From NCBI GenBank assembly GCA_948471115.1, contig CAOKRJ010000005.1:1-54969 (forward strand): a stretch of 54,969 bases of DNA, read 5' to 3'. Below the pieces are notes generated by a model. It saw only the letters and a list, made by a program, of their open reading frames with translations. It had not been told where the DNA came from and did no database searches. The first letter of the stretch is position 1; each line of letters starts with the position of its first letter. The position numbers and the translations under genes were made by a program. The DNA is from an uncultured Clostridium sp. (GTDB lineage Bacteria; Bacillota; Clostridia; TANB77; CAG-508). This document shows, piece after piece, positions 43,501-54,969 of this stretch.

Positions 43501-45939
43501 ATGAATTTAAAAAAATTAACAAGAATTATTTTATTAGTAGCAGTATTATTAGTACTAAGCATCGTACCAGTTAATGCCGTAGTATTCAATGCTGCATTTG
43601 ATAGCGATTTCTATGTTAACTGTTATCCAGATCTAAAAGCAGCATTCGGAAATGACGCTAACGCTGCATATGATCATTACTTAACATATGGAATCAAAGA
43701 AGGAAGAATTGCATCACCAGTATTTGATGTAAAAACTTATATAAGAAATTATCCAGACTTACAAGCTGCATTCGGAGACAATTATGAAGCAGCATACAAC
43801 CATTTCTTAGCAAATGGAATGAACGAAGGAAGATTAGCTTCAGACTCATTCAATGTTCAAGTTTACATAGCTAATTATCCAGACTTACAAGCTGCATTCG
43901 GAAATGATGTAGCAGGAGCTTATAACCATTATTTAAATTATGGTATGGCTGAAGGTAGAGTATGTGGCTCTATAGAAGCTGGAGCAGAAGCTCCAGAAGA
44001 CCATGTTCATGCTTATGAAATATCTAGAGTTTTAATAACAGCAACATGTATAAATGACGGAGAAGCAGTATACAAATGTGAATGTGGTGATGAAAAAGTA
44101 GATGTAATTCCAGCATCTGCAGAATATCACGATTATAAAGAAGTTGCATCAGGAGCAGATAACGTTAAAATTTATAAATGTACTATTTGTAATGATACTT
44201 ATTCTGAGGTTATTACAGATGAAGCACATGAGCATGATTATGTTGAAATAGCAGGTTCAAAAGTTGAAGCAAAATGTACAACAGAAGGAAAAATATTCAA
44301 ACAATGTTCTGATCCAGAATGTAATGATATTATAGAAGAAAAAATACCTATGATAGATCACGTATCATCAACTCCAGAAGGAACTGGAAAAATAACAGAA
44401 GGTGTAACATCTTGTGAAAAAGATGGTGCAGAAGAAGTAACTTGTGATGTTTGTCGTCAAAAATTCATAAGACCAATCTCTGCTCACAAATTTGAAAAAG
44501 TATCAGAAACAGCTGCTACTTGTACAGCAGAAGGAGTAGTAACATATAAATGTAAAGCTTGTGGAGAAACTAAAGTAGAAACTACAGAAAAAGTAGAACA
44601 TACTTATACATCTCCAATTGCAATATCAGATGCAACATGTGAAAAAACTGGTTTAAGTATGAGCGTTTGTACAGTTTGTGCAAATGAAAAAAGAGAAGTA
44701 TTACCAGCATTAGGACATAGTAAAGAAGGATTAACACCTGACTTGAGATATGTTGATGCAAAAGGAAAAGTTGTAATGCAAGAAGATGGTGTAACACCAG
44801 TAGCAGTAGAAGAAAACATTGCAAATGGCGAAAAAAATTGTGAATATTCAATAGCTGAAGAATACATTTGTGTAAACCATACAAATGGTGGTCATTGTGA
44901 TAAAAAAGAAGGAAAAATGTTAGTTGTAGTTACAAATGCAGCAGGACATAGAATAGATACAACAGAACCAGTTACAGTAGGAACAATTGAATATGTAGCT
45001 GGAGAACCAGTTAAGGAAAATGGAAAAATTGTTGTAAATGAAGGAGCAAAAGCAGATTGTAAACATGATGAAGTAAAAGTATTCACATGTGCAAACTGTG
45101 AAGAAGAACAAGTTGTAGTAATCACAGAAAAACTAGCACATAAAGTATTAGAAGGTTCAACTGTAGTATATGGAGCAACATGTAAAGCAGATGGATACAA
45201 AACATATACATGTACAACATGTAATGAACAAGTAACAGAAGAAACAGGAGAAAAAGCTTTAGGACATAACTATGTATTTGTACCAGAAACATGTACAGAA
45301 GTTGCAAATATAGCTTGTACAAGATGTACTTTAACAGCTGAAGACAAAGCTTCTGAAGGATATACAGCTTTCAAAGATTCTTTAACAGCTGAACAAAAAG
45401 TTGCATTAGGAAAACCATCTGCTGATGGACACGACCCTATAGGAGAAATTAAAGTAATAGATGGTGTAGAATGTAAATATTGTAAAAAATGTGGAGAATG
45501 GGTTCCAGTATCTTCTCAACCAATAACACATACACATGCAACAGATTTAACAGGAAAAACATTAGTAGAAGTTACTCCTAATACAACATATAAAATTGCA
45601 GATTGTGGAGTAGCAGGTTGTACAGGAATAGAAAATATTTCATGGAATGGTAGTGATTCTACAGTTGAAATAGAGGGTGCAACATATAATGTAGATACTA
45701 CTGATGGAAATAAACTTTCAAAAGGATCAACAGCACCAGCACATGTACACGCAACAGATTTAACAGGAAAAACATTAGTAGAAGTTACTCCTAATACAAC
45801 ATATAAAATTGCAGATTGTGGAGTAGCAGGTTGTACAGGAATAGAAAATATTTCATGGAATGGTAGTGATTCTACAGTTGAAATAGAGGGTGCAACATAT
45901 AATGTAGATACTACTGATGGAAATAAACTTTCAAAATAA
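43501..45939 (+). CDS. Secreted surface protein: YPDL repeats plus CxxC module array (expressed copy)
   Basis: An 812-residue secreted protein. Signal peptide about 1-26. Three repeats of about 36 residues (28-145) share YxxxYPDLxAAFG ... YNHYLxxGxxEGR, known from bacterial surface and wall-associated proteins. From residue 165 there are about ten modules of the form ATCxxxGxxxYxCxxCG with a spaced His; the Cys pairs could bind metal or form disulfides. Two identical 62-residue tails close it (DLTGKTLVEVTPNTTYKIAD). No LPXTG or membrane anchor. From residue 165 on, it is matched by the inverted cassette at 46976-49003. Strong AGGAGGT site. Confidence 0.85.
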   Translation: MNLKKLTRIILLVAVLLVLSIVPVNAVVFNAAFDSDFYVNCYPDLKAAFGNDANAAYDHYLTYGIKEGRIASPVFDVKTYIRNYPDLQAAFGDNYEAAYNHFLANGMNEGRLASDSFNVQVYIANYPDLQAAFGNDVAGAYNHYLNYGMAEGRVCGSIEAGAEAPEDHVHAYEISRVLITATCINDGEAVYKCECGDEKVDVIPASAEYHDYKEVASGADNVKIYKCTICNDTYSEVITDEAHEHDYVEIAGSKVEAKCTTEGKIFKQCSDPECNDIIEEKIPMIDHVSSTPEGTGKITEGVTSCEKDGAEEVTCDVCRQKFIRPISAHKFEKVSETAATCTAEGVVTYKCKACGETKVETTEKVEHTYTSPIAISDATCEKTGLSMSVCTVCANEKREVLPALGHSKEGLTPDLRYVDAKGKVVMQEDGVTPVAVEENIANGEKNCEYSIAEEYICVNHTNGGHCDKKEGKMLVVVTNAAGHRIDTTEPVTVGTIEYVAGEPVKENGKIVVNEGAKADCKHDEVKVFTCANCEEEQVVVITEKLAHKVLEGSTVVYGATCKADGYKTYTCTTCNEQVTEETGEKALGHNYVFVPETCTEVANIACTRCTLTAEDKASEGYTAFKDSLTAEQKVALGKPSADGHDPIGEIKVIDGVECKYCKKCGEWVPVSSQPITHTHATDLTGKTLVEVTPNTTYKIADCGVAGCTGIENISWNGSDSTVEIEGATYNVDTTDGNKLSKGSTAPAHVHATDLTGKTLVEVTPNTTYKIADCGVAGCTGIENISWNGSDSTVEIEGATYNVDTTDGNKLSK
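43993..44011 (+). other. Putative inversion crossover site, copy A
   Basis: CCAGAAGACCATGTTCATG, in frame (PEDHVH) at the junction between the YPDL repeats and the CxxC array. An exact inverted copy is at 48979-48997. Flanking DNA differs, and the match is longer than others I noticed between the two paralogs (up to about 15 bp). Confidence 0.5.
45538..45936 (+). repeat. Tandem 213-bp coding repeat, two copies
   Basis: 45538-45723 and 45751-45936 are identical over 186 bp, separated by a short linker (period 213 bp, 71 codons). It encodes the duplicated C-terminal tail of the surface protein. Sequence identity without drift suggests recent duplication. Confidence 0.88.
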
Positions 45940-45975
45940 TTATAAAATGATTATTTTAATTTCTATGATTATAAT

Positions 45976-46011
45976 AAAAAAACAAAGAGACATTAAGTCT
46001 CTTTGTTTTTT
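45976..46011 (+). terminator. Terminator of the surface protein gene
   Basis: CAAAGAGACATTAAGTCTCTTTG stem-loop (given as arms CAAAGAGAC / GTCTCTTTG) with A and T tracts. The same terminator ends the inverted cassette (46870-46906), so it was duplicated together with the gene. Confidence 0.88.
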
Positions 46012-46083
46012 ATACTATTTTTCATTTTTTTTTCATTTATTGGTACAATTCTTAATGTATAACCCATTGGAACTAATACTATC

Positions 46084-46710
46084 ATTAAAAATTGTAGAGA
46101 AAATGTAGGGGCACCGTTTGCGGGAATGCCCGTGAGACATGACACCACTGTGCCCTATATAATATCATATATAATGATTACTATTTTCTTCCCATTTTAT
46201 AGGATTGTTAATTATATAATTACATATCGCAAGATATTCTCTTTCATTTCTAATAATATGTTCATAATAATTTCGTTGCCAGCATATTTTTGACCTTGAG
46301 GAAACTCGTCCTTTAAAATATCGTATAATATTTCCTATTGTGGTTGCATTTCTTTTTTCTATTTCTAATATTATATGTATATGGTTTGGCATTATTTGAT
46401 AGATATTAATATTGGATTTTTTATATTTTCTCTGTATATTTAATAATTCTTTTTCTACTATTTTTCCTGCCTGATTTAATTCCATTTTATTTCTATTATT
46501 TCTCCTAATAAACATTCTCTATTTTGGATACATATTGTTATAAAATATAATCCTTCTTTTTTATAATCCCATTTCTTTAACCTAATAGAATGTCGTTTAT
46601 ACATTTTTTTATTATATTGCATATTTACCTCTTTCTTTGGGCACAGTGGTGTCATGTCTCACGGGCATTCCCACAAACGGTGCCCCTACATTTTCTCTAC
46701 AATTTTTAAT
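46084..46710. mobile_element. RAYT/Y1-transposase element with 72-bp terminal inverted repeats
   Basis: A 627-bp unit. The repeats 46084-46155 and 46639-46710 are inverted and differ at one base. They enclose a single Y1-type transposase gene. It lies between the convergent surface protein gene and silent cassette. I see no clear target duplication, which agrees with HUH-type transposition. Confidence 0.78.
46165..46622 (-). pseudogene. REP-associated tyrosine transposase (Y1_Tnp/RAYT), frameshifted
   Basis: HUH-type single-strand transposase related to IS200/IS605 TnpA. The N-terminus starts at ATG 46622 behind AAAGAGGT and reads MQYNKKMYKRHSIRLKKW ... FITICIQNRECLLGEII, then meets a stop. 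The rest (from about 46485) is in the other frame: ELNQAGKIVEKELLN, the HUH motif MPNHIHIIL, KGRVSSRS, and the tyrosine helix region EYLAICNYIINNP. One base lost in the A-run at 46485-46488 explains it. A -1 slip on that run is also possible, as in other transposases. Confidence 0.75.
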
Positions 46711-46869
46711 ACTACTTTAATTTTGTAATATTTTCAATTTTTGTCCTTAAATTTTTAATAATTTGAAAATTATAGGCGAATTGCCTAAAGATTAAAATAA
46801 ATTGATTTTAAATATGTATATATAATAACATCATTGCCTGTTTTTGTAAATATCTTTTAACGAACATAT

Positions 46870-46906
46870 AAAAAAACAAAGAGACTTAATGTCTCTTTGT
46901 TTTTTT
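46870..46906 (-). terminator. Terminator of the silent cassette
   Basis: Same CAAAGAGAC / GTCTCTTTG stem and loop as 45976-46011, in inverted orientation, with T tract on the minus strand. Confidence 0.85.
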
Positions 46907-46975
46907 ATATCAAATTAAATTGTTTTTCATCTATGCTCATTAGATATATTTACAAAAGTAAGTTAATACATTATT

Positions 46976-49003
46976 TTAAGCATTATTTGCTACAAAATTA
47001 AATGTAATGTCTATTGGAGCTTTAACATTATCTGCATCACTGAATGTGATAGTAATTCCACTATCTCCACATTTTTCTGCTGATAACCAAACTAAGAATT
47101 GGTTTCCATTAGAAGATGTAGTCCATTGATCCACACATGTTAAATCATCTGCTTCTATTTTGTAATCTCCTGCACTAACTTTTACTTTATCTTTAGCTAT
47201 ACCTAAATCTAATACTAAACAGAAAAATTTTTTTGTTTCGCCATTAGGATTTGTAGTTGCTCCTACTTTTTCAGCTGTTTCTGTAACTGTTACAGTTTTT
47301 CCTGTTGAAGATACTGTAATATTATTAGCTTGTGGTGTAGCAGATTGATGAACTCCTGCTTTTACACTTGTAATACTTAATGGTGTTTTTTCTGAGTCTA
47401 CTTCACCTTTTTCTCCAACTGTGATAACTCCTGTTTTAGCATCAACAGTTACTGCCCATACTTCTTTTAATGTATCTACAGATGTAATAGTGTTAGCTTT
47501 GCTATCAAAAGTAACTTCTTTTTCTCCGCAAGTTCTACATAATGCATAATATTTACTATTTTTATTAACAACTGTTCCAACAAAATCATGTCCTAATGGT
47601 GTATTTTTATCTACAGCTGTTTTTTGATCTCCTGTTAATGTTTTATAGAAATCATCATATCCAGCTTCAGTTCCTTTTAAGTCACATCCTCTTGTACATA
47701 CTATAGCTGCTCCTTTGATACATGTTGCTGCTTCGTATGCATAATTATGACCTAATGCTTTTTCGTTTGTTTTTTCTTCTATTTTTTCATTACATGTTGC
47801 ACATGTGTATGTTTTTCTTCCTTCTTCATTACATGTTGCACCATATACTACTGTTGTATTTGCTTTTGGAGTATGATCTAATTTTTCAGTAAGTACTACA
47901 ACTTCTTCTTGTTTGCATCCTTCATTTGCGCATGTAAATAATTTTACTTCTGCATGTTGACAATCAGATTTTCCACCTTTTGTTACAACATATTTTCCTT
48001 CTGAATTCTTTTGAGGAACTCCTTTTTCATCACATAAAATTGATCCTACGATAACATCTTTAGTTGAGTCTATTCTATGTCCTAATTTTTTAGCTATGAC
48101 TTTTACTTGAATTTTGTTACATGTATCACATTCAAAAGCTTCTATTAAATCATGTTCGCAATCTGCAGCTGTTTGAGTATTGTCTATTTTTGAAGCATCA
48201 AATTTTCCAGATTTATCTGTAAGAATATAATTTCCTTTTTCGTCTACTTCAACCCATCCTTTTGTAGCTATTCCTGTATGATTTAATTTTTTAGAGATTG
48301 TTCTTTTTTCATCTCCGCAAACTTTACAAACACTTAAAGTTAATCCTTCTGTTTGACAATCTGCTGGTATCACTTCTTTAGCATTTGTATAATCATGGTC
48401 TATTTTTTCAATTGTATCTGCTTTTGTTTTTCCACATACTTTACATTTATATGTTGTTACACCTTCTGCTGTACATGTTGCAGGTACTTCTGTTACTTTT
48501 TCATAGCTATGAGCTGAGATTGGTCTTGTGAATTTTTGGTGACATACATCACATGTAACTTCTTCTTCACCGTCTGTTGTACATGATACTGCTCCAGTTA
48601 ATATTTTTCCTTGTCCTTCTTTTGTTGAAGATTTGTGATCTATTTTAGCTATTGTTTCTGTTAATTTTTCTCCACAAACTTCACATTGTTTAAATATTTT
48701 TCCTTCTTCAGTACATTTTGCTTCTATTCTTGAACCTTCGATTTCAAGATAATTATGATCATGAGCTTCTTCTTTAACTATTTCAGTTTTAACATTTCCA
48801 CAAACATTACATTTGTAAATTTTTACATTTTCAACTTCTGATGGTATTTCTACATAATCATGATATTCTTCTGATGCAGGAATTACATCTGTTTTTGTTT
48901 CTCCACATTCACATGTATAAACTCCTTCACCATTATCTTTACATGTTGCTGTAATTAATGTTTTTGTAAGTTTATAGTCATGAACATGGTCTTCTGGGTC
49001 AGT
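46976..49003 (-). pseudogene. Silent, startless paralog of the surface protein C-terminal region
   Basis: Open for 676 codons from a TAA at 49006-49004 to the stop at 46976. No ATG, GTG or TTG occurs in its first 208 codons; the first possible start is a GTG at 48373. It has no signal peptide and no YPDL repeats. It is collinear with the expressed protein from PEDHVH on (CxxC modules such as YTCECG, YKCKVCG, SVCKVCG), then ends in a different beta-rich domain of about 200 residues (from FDSKANTITSVD). The frame is intact despite the lack of a start, which suggests selection as an expression cassette rather than decay. Inversion at the 19-bp site would yield a protein of about 837 residues. 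Confidence 0.82.
48979..48997 (-). other. Putative inversion crossover site, copy B
   Basis: Exact inverted copy of 43993-44011, in the same reading frame of the silent cassette, and only three codons after its upstream stop. Nothing like the YPDL region is found upstream of it. Confidence 0.5.
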
Positions 49004-49112
49004 TTAATAAATGGGAAAATAGGGGGGCTTAATTCGTATTAGAGTAAAATAATTTATACTCTTAAAGATATATTTTAAGAATATAAATTTAGCAATAGAA
49101 ATGCATTAAAAT

Positions 49113-50276
49113 TTAACTTATTTTTTTAATTTCTTCTTTCATGAAATCTAAAGATACAGAAGTATATGTATCACTAGTTATGGAACTACCTTCAATATGA
49201 CCAACCATTGCTTGAATTACCACTAAAGCAATAGACTTTTCTTGACAACGAGTAATAAAGGTATGCCTAAGTGTATGAGTTCTTAAATAATTAGATATAT
49301 TGTTTTTATTTAGAGAATCTAGAAAGTCATTAATTCTTTTAGGTAAAATTAAAGAATTTCTTTGGTAGTCCCAAAATAATAAGTTATGAATATTAGAAAC
49401 TCCTTGCTTTAATATATCTAAAATAATTTTCTTAGTCTCAGATGTCATAGGGAATGTTCTTTTACCTTTATCTATATTTGTCCTTCGATTATATGTCTTT
49501 GTATGTTTACCTAAAACGTATTTATTATTTTTTTTAGTTAAAGTTCTATATACAGTAATAGTATTTTTCTCCAAATCTATGCAATCACTAGAAAGTGCTA
49601 AAATTTCGCCAATCCTCATACCTGTATTTAATTGTAATAAAACGATTTGTTTATATTGTTCATTAACATTTGATATATTTAAACATTCAATTAATTTTTG
49701 CTCTTCATCAATAGTTAATGCTTGAATTCTTTTAGTTTCCTTTTTAGAAATTGGTTTATTCAAAGTCTCATCATTCATAGGATTAAAAGTTATTTTCCTT
49801 CTTGATAGAGCAATATTAAAGGTTTTATATAATAATCTCCAAATTTTATTAATAGAATTATTAGAATACTCTCTAATGTTATCTTTAGCATCTTCAATAT
49901 CATCAACAGTAATAAGATGAATAGGTTTATTTATAAAGTTACTACAAGTTTTTTTAATCTGTTCTTTAGTACCCAAATCCCTAGTATAAGTAGAATCACC
50001 TATCAAATTATCTTTATACTTTTGTTCAATATGTTTCTCTAATATCTTAATAAAAGTATCTTTATCTTTTTCAAAGTAAGTACCATTATTAAGCATAAAC
50101 TTTATATCAGTAACTCTTTTTTTAAACTCCTTTACTTTTTCATTCTTTTTCTGTTGGATTGTCTTTCTTTGACCATTGTAATGAAATTGAAAAAACCATC
50201 TCTTTAAAGTTTCACTATAATATAATGAACCCTCACCATTTCCAACAGATTTTCTTCTACGATTTTTTGCTTCCAT
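49113..50276 (-). CDS. Tyrosine recombinase/integrase
   Basis: A 387-residue site-specific recombinase. The N-terminus (about 10-45, GSLYYSETLKRWFFQFHYNG) looks like the AP2-type arm-binding domain of Tn916-like integrases, then comes the SAM-like core-binding domain (about 70-165) and the catalytic domain. Catalytic residues are all visible: Arg221 (TGMRIGE), His334 and Arg337 (HTLRHTF), His360 (GHIEGSS) and Tyr371 (SDTYTSV). No phage or conjugation genes are nearby, and it sits about 110 nt from the silent cassette on the same strand. It therefore may be a local invertase, or the last remnant of an integrated element. Leader GAAAGGAATGA precedes it. Confidence 0.9.
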   Translation of the reverse strand: MEAKNRRRKSVGNGEGSLYYSETLKRWFFQFHYNGQRKTIQQKKNEKVKEFKKRVTDIKFMLNNGTYFEKDKDTFIKILEKHIEQKYKDNLIGDSTYTRDLGTKEQIKKTCSNFINKPIHLITVDDIEDAKDNIREYSNNSINKIWRLLYKTFNIALSRRKITFNPMNDETLNKPISKKETKRIQALTIDEEQKLIECLNISNVNEQYKQIVLLQLNTGMRIGEILALSSDCIDLEKNTITVYRTLTKKNNKYVLGKHTKTYNRRTNIDKGKRTFPMTSETKKIILDILKQGVSNIHNLLFWDYQRNSLILPKRINDFLDSLNKNNISNYLRTHTLRHTFITRCQEKSIALVVIQAMVGHIEGSSITSDTYTSVSLDFMKEEIKKIS

Positions 50277-51212: not shown

Positions 51213-54200
51213 TTGAAAAATATTAAAAATCTTAGCAAAGTTATTATTATAGCAATATTAGTAGCAATGATAATAACAGTAGCATACCCAATAATAGTAT
51301 TAGGAGCAAATGAAAAAAATCTACCAGTTATAACACCAATGCAAAGAGCAGGAGAGATAAGAGCTGGACAAGAGTTAAAATTTAAAATTACAGATGATAC
51401 GAAAGTATCTTATATTTTTTATGCTTGGAATCGTCGTACAGATGGAGGAAAATCAACATGTATCGAACTAGAAAAAGAAGAACCAGAATACGAATTTAAG
51501 ATTAATGCACCAACACAACCAGGCTTATATGAATTTAGTATAGCAGCAGAAGATTATTATGGGAATACTACATATTGGATGAATATTCCTTATATAATAA
51601 CAAATAATTTAAGTGGAGTACAAGACAATACTGCACCAGAATTTATATTCAACACTCCAAATGAATACCCATATAATGATTCAACAATTCCTCAAGAAAT
51701 GCCAATTACAATTAGAGCAAAAGATCCTTCAGGAATATATTATATAGGATATAAATGGACAAGAGAATTAGAGACGAAAGTTACAGGAGCAACACTTGTA
51801 TATAAAAAAGATACTGTAAAAATCACAGCACCAAAAGAACAAGGAGTTTGGTATTTAATATTGTATGCACGTGATGGTTCAAACAATCTTTCAGAATGTT
51901 ACTATACAAGAGTAACAGTTAAAGATCAAGTAGCACCAACATTAACACTAAATGGTAAAGCAGATGTAGATGTACCATTAAATGGAACATTTACAGATGA
52001 AGGAGCAACATTTAGTGATAATTGTGATGCAACAAAAATAGTATATGCAAACGAAAAAGTAGATACATCAAAAGTAGGAGAACAAATATTAACATATACA
52101 GCTAGAGATAATGCAGGAAATGTATCAAATACAGTTACTAGAAAAGTAACAGTAGTAGCTCCATATAAAACTTATGAATTAACAGCACCTACAAAAACAG
52201 AATACAAAGTAGGAGACAAAATAGACTTAACAGGAGCAAACATCAAAGTAATAGATGAACGTGGAAATATATCAAATGTTACACCAACAGAAGATATGTT
52301 TACAGGATTTTCAACACAAAGTGTTGGTTCAAAAGAAGCAACATTTACATATGAAGGTACAAGTATTAAATATAAATATGAAGTAAAAGCATTAAAATAC
52401 GATATGAGTGGTGTAAAATTTACAGGAACAGAAGCAACATATGATGGTACAGCACACAATATAGCAGTTGATGAAACAACATTACCAGAAGGAGTAACAG
52501 TAACAGGATATATTGGAAATGGACAAACATCAGCTGGAGAACATAAAGTAAAGGTAACATTTGCAGGTGATGAAAATCATGAAAAAATAGAAGACATAGA
52601 AGTAACACTAAAAATAACACCTAAAACAATAACAGTAATAGCAGAAAACAAAACAAGCGAATATGGAGTAGAAAGCTTAGAAAACTTAACAGCAAGACTA
52701 GCAGTAGCAGGAGATGCAGAAAATGGAGAAGACTATACAAACAATGTATTAGTAGGAACAGACACATTAGAAAGTATAGGAGTAATAGCTTCATTATCAA
52801 CAACAGCAACAACAAGTTCAAATGTAGGAGAATATGAAATAACAGGAGAAAGTAAAGTATATGGAAACTATACAGTAACAATAAAACCAGGAAAATACCA
52901 AATAACAGAAAAAGCAATAACTGTAATAGCAGAAGACAAAACAAGTGAATATGGAGCAGAAAACTTAGAAAAACTAACAGCAAGACTAGCAGTAGCAGGG
53001 GACGCAGAAAATGGAGAAGACTACACAAACAATGTATTGGTAGGAACAGACACTTTAGAAAATATAGGAGTAACAGGAGCATTAGCAACAACAGCAACAA
53101 CAAGCTCAAATGTAGGAGAATATGCAATAACAGGAGAAAGTAAAGTATACGGAAACTATACAGTAACAATAAAATCAGGAACATATAAAATAACAGAAAA
53201 AGCAATAACAGTAATAGCAGAAGACAAATCAAGCGAATATGGAGCAGAAAACTTAGAAGAACTAACAGCAAGACTAGCAGTAGCAGGAGACGCACAAAAC
53301 GGAGAAGACTATACAAATAATATATTAGTAGGAGAAGACACATTAGAAAGTATAGGAGTATTAAATACATTAACAACAACTGCAACAACATCAGTAATAG
53401 GAGACTACCCAATCACAGGAACAGATGGAAAATATGGAAACTATACAGTAACAGTAATCGAAGGAACATATAAAATAACTAAAAAAATCCCAACAATAAA
53501 TGAACTAACATATAACTTACCAGCAAGTAAAATGTATAATGGAGAAGAAAGACCAATAAAAGTAAATGCAAAACAAGGAATAGAAGGACTAGGAAAAATA
53601 ACAATAAAATATAATGGAGAAACAACAGCACCAATAAATGTGGGAGAATATAAAGTAACAGTAGACATAGCAGAAGGAGAAAACTATGGAGAAGCAACAA
53701 ACATAGAATTAGGAACATATACAATAACAGCAAGAGAAATAACAGTAATAGCAGAAGACAAAACAAGTAAATATGGAGCAGAAAACTTAGAAACATTAAC
53801 AGCAAGACTAGCAGTAGCAGGAGACGCACAAAACGGAGAAGACTATACAAATAATAAATTAATAGGAACAGACACATTAGAAAGTATAGGAGTAATAGAA
53901 GCATTAACAACAGATGCAACAACAAGCTCTAGTGTAGGAGACTATACAATAACAGGAGAAAGCAAAGTATATGGAAACTATACAGTAACAATAAAACCAG
54001 GAACATATACAATAACAGCAAGAGAAATAACAGTAATAGCAGAAGACAAAACAAGTAAATATGGAGCAGAAAACTTAGAAACATTAACAGCAAGACTAGC
54101 AGTAGCAGGAGACGCACAAAACGGAGAAGACTATACAAATAATAAATTAATAGGAACAGACACATTAGAAAGTATAGGAGTAATAGAAGCATTAACAACA

Positions 54201-54969
54201 GATGCAACAACAAGCTCTAGTGTAGGAGACTATACAATAACAGGAGAAAGCAAAGTATATGGAAACTATACAGTAACAATAAAACCAGGAACATATACAA
54301 TAACAGCAAGAGAAATAACAGTAATAGCAGAAGACAAAACAAGCGAATATGGAGTAGCAAGCCTAGAAGAATTAACAGCAAGACTAGCAGTAGCAGGAGA
54401 CGCACAAAATGGAGAAGATTATACAAATAATACATTAGTAGGAGAAGACACATTAAAAAGTATAGGAGTAATAGATACATTAGAAACAACAGCAACAATA
54501 ACATCAGTAGTAGGAGAATATCCAATAACAGGAGAAAGCAAAGTATATGGAAATTATACAGTAACAGTAATCGAAGGAACATACAAAATAACTAAAAAAG
54601 TACCAACAAAAGCAGAATTAGCATATAACCTACCAGCAAGCAAAATGTATAATGGAGAAGAAAGACCAATAACAGTAAAAGCAAAACTAGGAATAGTAGG
54701 ACTAGGAAAAATAACAATAAAATATAATGGAGAAACAACAGCGCCAATAAATGCAGGAGAATATAAAATAACAGTAGACATAGCAGAAGGAGAAAACTAT
54801 GCAGAAGCAACGAATATAGAATTAGGAACATATACAATAACAGCAAGAGAAATAACAGTAATAGCAGAAGACAAAACAAGTAAATATGGAGCAGAAAACT
54901 TAGAAACATTAACAGCAAGACTAGCAGTAGCAGGAGACGCACAAAACGGAGAAGACTATACAAATAATA
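51213..54969 (+). CDS. Large secreted MBG/Ig-like repeat protein (partial, runs off the window)
   Basis: At least 1252 residues, still open at the window end. TTG start behind AAGGGGG. Signal peptide about 1-33 (VIIIAILVAMIITVAYPIIV). Residues 35-235 are two Ig-like beta domains; 235-316 is a DUF5011-type Ig domain (VTVKDQVAPTLTLNG ... YTARDNAGNVS); about 316-470 hold two more beta domains, the second starting ATYDGTAHNI. From residue 471 on come MBG-type units of 96 residues (ITVIAEDKTSEYG ... KVYGNYTV). Such proteins are stalk-like adhesins or surface proteins. The anchor must lie beyond the window. Confidence 0.85.
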   Translation, partial: MKNIKNLSKVIIIAILVAMIITVAYPIIVLGANEKNLPVITPMQRAGEIRAGQELKFKITDDTKVSYIFYAWNRRTDGGKSTCIELEKEEPEYEFKINAPTQPGLYEFSIAAEDYYGNTTYWMNIPYIITNNLSGVQDNTAPEFIFNTPNEYPYNDSTIPQEMPITIRAKDPSGIYYIGYKWTRELETKVTGATLVYKKDTVKITAPKEQGVWYLILYARDGSNNLSECYYTRVTVKDQVAPTLTLNGKADVDVPLNGTFTDEGATFSDNCDATKIVYANEKVDTSKVGEQILTYTARDNAGNVSNTVTRKVTVVAPYKTYELTAPTKTEYKVGDKIDLTGANIKVIDERGNISNVTPTEDMFTGFSTQSVGSKEATFTYEGTSIKYKYEVKALKYDMSGVKFTGTEATYDGTAHNIAVDETTLPEGVTVTGYIGNGQTSAGEHKVKVTFAGDENHEKIEDIEVTLKITPKTITVIAENKTSEYGVESLENLTARLAVAGDAENGEDYTNNVLVGTDTLESIGVIASLSTTATTSSNVGEYEITGESKVYGNYTVTIKPGKYQITEKAITVIAEDKTSEYGAENLEKLTARLAVAGDAENGEDYTNNVLVGTDTLENIGVTGALATTATTSSNVGEYAITGESKVYGNYTVTIKSGTYKITEKAITVIAEDKSSEYGAENLEELTARLAVAGDAQNGEDYTNNILVGEDTLESIGVLNTLTTTATTSVIGDYPITGTDGKYGNYTVTVIEGTYKITKKIPTINELTYNLPASKMYNGEERPIKVNAKQGIEGLGKITIKYNGETTAPINVGEYKVTVDIAEGENYGEATNIELGTYTITAREITVIAEDKTSKYGAENLETLTARLAVAGDAQNGEDYTNNKLIGTDTLESIGVIEALTTDATTSSSVGDYTITGESKVYGNYTVTIKPGTYTITAREITVIAEDKTSKYGAENLETLTARLAVAGDAQNGEDYTNNKLIGTDTLESIGVIEALTTDATTSSSVGDYTITGESKVYGNYTVTIKPGTYTITAREITVIAEDKTSEYGVASLEELTARLAVAGDAQNGEDYTNNTLVGEDTLKSIGVIDTLETTATITSVVGEYPITGESKVYGNYTVTVIEGTYKITKKVPTKAELAYNLPASKMYNGEERPITVKAKLGIVGLGKITIKYNGETTAPINAGEYKITVDIAEGENYAEATNIELGTYTITAREITVIAEDKTSKYGAENLETLTARLAVAGDAQNGEDYTNN
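52629..54969 (+). repeat. Two-level MBG repeat array (288-bp units in about 1.11-kb blocks)
   Basis: Units begin (codon ATA of ITVIAE) at 52629, 52917, 53205, 53739, 54027, 54315 and 54852. Within a triplet the period is exactly 288 bp; between triplets it is 534 or 537 bp, because an 82- to 83-codon spacer domain (YNLPASKMYNGEERPI) follows every third unit. Blocks therefore repeat every 1110-1113 bp. 53721-54008 and 54009-54296 appear identical. Confidence 0.88.

Follow-up and report, generated by a model that had tools for sequence, protein, structure and literature searches.

A probable shufflon-like switch for a secreted surface protein on the chromosome of uncultured Clostridia

The stretch of DNA analysed here (the window, comprising all 54,969 nt of contig CAOKRJ010000005.1, assembly GCA_948471115.1) comes from an uncultured Clostridium sp. 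and carries a gene for a predicted secreted surface protein, an inverted paralogous cassette and, beside this cassette, a gene for a tyrosine recombinase. Comparison of the window genome (G000) with five relatives of the same genus (G001–G005) supports a site-specific inversion at a 19-bp repeat with an 18-bp core, by which the C-terminal part of the secreted protein would be swapped, and we consider it very likely that the locus is a chromosomal shufflon-like switch with the adjacent recombinase as the probable invertase. The architecture of the locus, the site, the reading frames and the apparent silence of the reversed cassettes can be read from the sequence itself. We infer that the window population switches; the benefit would presumably lie in varying a surface structure that is seen by host immunity, phages or binding partners, with a conceivable role in antigen, adhesin or phage-receptor variation.

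The layout of the window locus proposed in a first-pass annotation, made from the sequence alone, was borne out in nearly all its details. The surface gene that it described (43501–45939, + strand) encodes 812 aa, and the cassette that it took to be silent lies in a reversed frame (49003–46976, − strand), which is open for 675 aa, 673 of them counted from the site, with an in-frame TAA three codons 5′ of the homology and the first start-type codon, a GTG, 208 codons in. The exact 19-bp inverted match between the two (43993–44011 and 48979–48997), of which the genome holds only two copies even when three mismatches are allowed, indeed coincides with the start of the homology, identity amounting to 77% over the next 315 bp, compared to 33% over the 60 bp upstream. 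Inversion of the 5005-bp interval would fuse the 164 residues of the constant N-terminal part to the 673 of the silent cassette, yielding the predicted product of 837 aa.

The recombination site and the orientation of the segment

Within a repeat of 77% identity, a 19-bp exact run is not striking on its own, the next longest exact runs in the window being 15 and 14 bp. What is striking is the recurrence of its 18-bp core, the word CCAGAAGACCATG(TT or AA)CAT with a G three bases upstream, which was found 21 times in the six genomes (twice in the window genome, once in G002 and up to nine times in the other relatives), at an estimated chance expectation of ~2e-4 per genome. When two mismatches were allowed, these genomes yielded one other match, which is unrelated to the system. 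Every copy of the site is found, in frame, at the junction between the constant N-terminus and a cassette, at the start of a silent cassette, or at a contig stop, and the junction residues read PEDHVH or PEDHEH. We collected 17 cassettes and compared codon usage among 14 cassettes: the same residue was encoded by the same codon in 513 of 513 comparisons inside the site, but in only 73% elsewhere in the cassettes. As the site codons never vary while others do, the DNA itself is under constraint; an explanation of the 19-bp identity as a plain coding motif (PEDHVH) was rejected on the same grounds. Upstream, the G at position −3 is kept in 15 of 15 distinct flanks, non-coding ones included, which are otherwise dissimilar. 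Judged by these sequence features, the site is probably recognised by a recombinase, with one of its sides fixed and the other free. It is also present beside other chromosomal flanks in G001 (C5, C32), and G005 keeps sites in direct repeat, which is only suggestive of inversion without deletion. A scan of IMG/VR for the site returned two matches, about as many as chance would produce, both in unrelated sequence.

Taken by itself, the window, with its one orientation and its 77% identical inverted copy, could also be explained as a static inverted duplication, in which the reversed copy lost its start and is decaying, while the 19-bp match persists as a conserved coding motif (PEDHVH). We regard this as very unlikely, given that all 17 cassettes are open over their full length, that codons are invariant in the site and vary elsewhere, and that the G at −3 is maintained even in flanks that do not code. 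For the relatives, a static duplication is refuted by contigs that break off precisely at the site, in the manner expected when both orientations are present. Where the upstream flank of unfused cassettes is assembled, they are preceded by an in-frame stop 2–12 codons before the site, and they are mostly without a start codon for 60–208 codons.

Evidence on orientation comes from the branching recorded in assembled contigs of metagenome assemblies. In G001, contig C16 (43726 bp), which carries the N-terminal flank, breaks off at the final base of the site, and C32 starts at this point, while a third contig, C48 (3861 bp), consists of a cassette pair with the site and one extra T at each end. 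Each end of C48 overlaps both C16 and C32 by 19 bases; since both ends thus join both flanks, the segment is present in both orientations. We simulated the de Bruijn graph of this locus with one orientation and with both (both: k = 55 or 77). The one-orientation graph collapsed into a single unitig, whereas the graph containing both orientations reproduced the deposited C48 to the base, its terminal T on either side included, as well as the precise termini of C16 and C32. On the recombinase side, contig C4 breaks off after the site and two further bases, GA; both ends of the neighbouring segment start with this same stretch. In G003, the contigs of the N-terminal flank (C40, 16660 bp) and of the recombinase flank (C20, 25446 bp) likewise end at the last site base, and in G004, one contig contains two different cassettes, each preceded by the same 93 bases of N-terminal flank plus site. 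At the level of assembled sequence, these contigs show both orientations to be present in the G001 population and strongly suggest the same for G003 and G004. The opposite orientation, which the first-pass annotation had proposed to look for in related strains, was thus encountered in at least one relative, with matching signs in two more, the window assembly holding one orientation only.

Two other explanations bear on these contigs. RecA-dependent gene conversion from silent cassettes, as known for pilE or vls, might vary the gene instead of site-specific inversion; such systems typically have silent homologous cassettes that lack a start, and some cassettes within one genome share near-identical blocks, so that conversion may act in addition. 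As a replacement for inversion, however, it seems hardly credible, because conversion can do without an exact shared site, a dedicated recombinase or inverted convergent pairs, and would not yield segment contigs with both ends linking both flanks. The contig breaks might also arise without ongoing switching, if strains that are each fixed for another cassette were mixed, considering that the data are metagenome assemblies, in which alternative cassettes likewise branch at the last shared base. This we consider unlikely, because the joining of both ends of one segment to both flanks in G001 needs both orientations, and because the same signature recurs in G003 and G004.

The adjacent recombinase and a proposed mechanism

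The window recombinase, encoded on the minus strand, is complete; its Arg (GMR), HxxRH, GH and Tyr motifs are all present, as had been claimed, and only ~17 residues follow the catalytic Tyr motif. Together, the recombinases at the locus in G000, G001, G003 and G005 form one clade with a support of 100/100, whose sister or nearest outgroup enzymes include ones adjoining mobile-element genes. Their core-binding and catalytic domains are related to conjugative-element integrases of the ICE/Tn916-Tn1549 type, and the solved structures closest to them are the Int protein entries 6EMY–6EN2, which we take to be the Tn1549 integrase. The clade derives from ICE-type integrases. The enzymes of G001 and G005 are without the N-terminal arm-binding-like region, and their last codons run into the site. 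At L069:1–1116 and L062:9381–10502, the recombinase frame ends inside or just after the site, and inversion may alter the last residues of the enzyme there.

The recombinase adjoins nadM in each of the five species that have at least two sites; G002 has a single site and no recombinase beside nadM. In G004, where both junctions occur, the sole recombinase homologue is the locus copy, itself cut by a contig end. Judged by this genomic context, the adjacent recombinase likely performs the inversion. The gene that follows nadM in relatives (G005:C27, G001:C4), which we read as pyrG, encoding CTP synthase, sits on another contig in the window genome (G000:C1:34826–36421), where the chromosome beyond nadM appears to be rearranged.

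In the mechanism we propose, a single gene start, comprising the signal peptide, the YPDL repeats, the ribosome-binding site and presumably the promoter, ends in the 18-bp site, and the cassettes, each starting with the same in-frame site, lie in convergent pairs, one forward and one reversed. The tyrosine recombinase would pair two inverted sites and recombine them within the conserved 18 bp, flipping the segment in between. The constant start would then be read in the same frame, through PEDHVH or PEDHEH, into the other cassette, and translation would end at the stop codon of that cassette, followed by its terminator-like hairpin. For the window, this predicts products of 812 and of 837 residues. 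Further cassette pairs adjoin the recombinase on other contigs in G001 and G005. Given such pairs, and the sites beside other flanks in G001, action at a distance is possible.

Several points weigh against this mechanism. No inverted junction was seen for the window genome, whose assembly holds a single orientation, and the contigs of the relatives would look no different if two strains, each fixed in one of the orientations, lived side by side. Assembly gaps in G002 and G004 limit statements on missing parts, and both expression and surface location are predicted from the signal peptide only. Most of these genomes, moreover, contain other tyrosine recombinases (nine matches in G000), which could act in trans. 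It is therefore conceivable that the inversion is real but carried out by one of these, with the adjacent enzyme a leftover integrase, as would also fit the descent of its family from mobile-element integrases. We nevertheless find this improbable: the locus enzyme keeps its place beside nadM and a site in species with several sites, belongs to a clade of its own, has all motifs intact in the window copy and is the only homologue in G004, which has both junctions. The adjacent recombinase remains our candidate for the invertase.

Cassette repertoire and other features of the locus

The constant N-terminus of the window protein, which forms three helix pairs in a structure model, is 96–98% identical to that of three species and 61–65% identical to that of two others. 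The cassettes, in contrast, share between 17 and 91% identity with each other. They are arranged as convergent pairs with the sites at their outer ends, and the gaps examined between them hold terminator-like hairpins. Most cassettes contain 25–36 cysteines in CxxC arrays, and three contain 6–7 (L063:5032–6693, L062:2097–3845 and L067:2–1705). One of these low-cysteine cassettes was modelled as a parallel β-helix with a mean pLDDT of 71 (~75–95 across much of the helix), which matches tailspikes and adhesins as a fold class only. If the model is correct, switching would replace one fold by another in the exposed part of the protein, and would do so in at least two species. The full window protein, a secreted YPDL/Cys-rich protein, has no Pfam or NCBIfam match above cut-off, and a sequence and fold search of the PDB with it returned nothing meaningful (best E 0.25, model pTM 0.30, TM-scores ~0.06). 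A survey of 292 genomes of the family revealed no such cassettes beyond the genus, and weaker Cys-rich repeats occur there in single genes of other genera. In G001, a separate YPDL and Cys-rich protein is encoded without a recombination site (L078:5888–8056).

The first-pass annotation had envisaged a switch between two cassettes. Its inversion reading is supported by five same-genus genomes, but its two-way scale is not, since the relatives hold a multi-segment reservoir; with up to nine sites in a relative, the system appears to be genus-wide and broader than a two-way switch. A more far-reaching reading, which we regard as plausible, though somewhat short of probable, would be a genus-wide, fold-swapping shufflon derived from a conjugative-element integrase, with reservoirs at more than one chromosomal place, one expression site and an enzyme that acts at a distance and may also rearrange the chromosome between sites far apart. 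The alternatives on offer would then be a Cys-rich array, possibly metal-binding, and a parallel β-helix.

Table 1. Features of the window locus (positions in the 54,969-nt window)
Feature	Position	Strand	Description
Constant N-terminal part of surface gene	43501–43992	+	Signal peptide and three YPDL helical repeats, 164 aa
Recombination site, expressed side: GNN CCAGAAGACCATGTTCAT	43990–44010	+	18-bp core 43993–44010, G at −3
Cassette A, currently fused	43993–45939	+	Cys-rich CxxC array and tandem C-terminal repeat, 648 aa
Terminator-like hairpin of cassette A	45974–46011		38 bp, exact inverted match to 46871–46908
Insertion between cassettes	46071–46723		REP/RAYT-like, 85-bp inverted arms (92%)
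REP-associated tyrosine (Y1) transposase-like open reading frame	46165–46515	−	116 aa
Terminator-like hairpin of cassette B	46871–46908		
Silent cassette B	46976–48997	−	673 codons, different C-terminal domain
Recombination site, silent side	48980–49000	−	18-bp core 48980–48997, G at −3
Tyrosine recombinase, probable invertase	49113–50276	−	387 aa; Phage_integrase and SAM-like core domains, N-terminal arm-binding-like region

The gap between the two window cassettes (Table 1) measures 1036 bp, compared to 78–225 bp in the gaps of relatives examined, because an insertion sits there that is absent from the latter. The earlier statement that no other mobile genes lie around the recombinase has to be corrected on this account, as the insertion contains a Y1 transposase-like open reading frame with inverted arms. 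Short repeats related to the insertion recur at dozens of places in the window genome, which suggests a REP/RAYT family in a Clostridia genome. Between the cassette pairs of relatives, we observed a DUF1016_N/YhcG-type gene, apparently split in two overlapping frames, in G005 (L062:4092–5238) and an open reading frame for a RelE/ParE-like toxin in G001 (L066:4750–5142). At 51213–54968, the window encodes a second large secreted protein, built of 288-bp tandem repeats (~96 residues per unit, 86–93% matches), which runs off the contig end.

Relation to known switching systems

The R64 shufflon (Rci, sfx, PilV) resembles the system described here in combining a constant N-terminal part with opposed C-terminal cassettes, short repeated sites and an adjacent tyrosine recombinase. 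Its sfx site has one conserved and one variable arm (PMC11852207), and the present site is similarly asymmetric, with 18 bp fixed on the cassette side and an upstream side that is variable except for the G at −3. However, the variable protein of R64 is a type IV pilus tip adhesin, while here it is a secreted Cys-rich protein encoded on a Clostridia chromosome; the enzyme belongs to the ICE-integrase branch, is without the extra C-terminal domain described for Rci and, in the case of the window recombinase, gave no match to the Rci model; and the site sequences are unrelated, as far as sfx has been described. Because it lacks two traits that define R64-type shufflons, an Rci-type enzyme and a pilus adhesin, we did not file the locus among them, although it works in a similar way.

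In the vsa and vpma systems of Mycoplasma (HvsR, Xer1), inversion puts one out of a set of silent surface genes behind a single expression site. These systems move whole lipoprotein genes in Mollicutes, whereas the junction found here is internal, in frame and placed after 164 residues. The invertible promoters of clostridia and Bacteroides (cwpV, flgB, PSA) likewise serve phase variation of surface traits in gut bacteria and are driven by tyrosine recombinases, but they flip regulatory DNA on and off. Here, the invertible DNA consists of two convergent coding cassettes and starts inside the gene, so that coding segments would be exchanged while the gene stays on. As regards the general hallmark of DNA inversion, both orientations in natural populations, it is seen in the relatives, but not in the window.

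The nearest functional parallels appear to be the Rin shufflon of bifidophages and the invertible hsdS genes of Firmicutes. In Rin, from Bifidobacterium prophages, a tyrosine recombinase flanks variable C-terminal receptor-binding segments, with an asymmetric 11-bp site (PMC6109161). Rin is without an arm-type domain, as are the G001 and G005 enzymes, while the window enzyme keeps an arm-binding-like N-terminus; the protein varied by Rin is a phage tail receptor-binding protein, as opposed to a chromosomal secreted protein. For hsdS, for example in Streptococcus pneumoniae, the arrangement is outlined as an expressed gene with inverted silent paralogues and a nearby tyrosine recombinase that exchanges coding modules (PMC4948785), and its inversion has been classified as inverton group 145 (PMC11892184). 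The hsdS products are specificity subunits of DNA methylases, whereas the proteins described here are secreted and are not S subunits of type I restriction-modification systems, and a single short site is common to cassettes of different fold.

None of the papers covered by our literature searches describes secreted proteins that are varied in this way from a chromosome of Clostridia. For metagenome assemblies, the relatives' contigs offer a practical rule, namely that inversion is revealed where several contigs break off at one short in-frame word. Programmed module exchange as such has precedents in plasmid pili, phage tails, DNA methylases and surface proteins of mycoplasmas; with the present system, uncultured gut Clostridia would gain a way to change a surface protein without switching it off, and shufflon enzymes would have a second origin in integrases of integrative elements, whose arm-binding region was apparently lost in two species.

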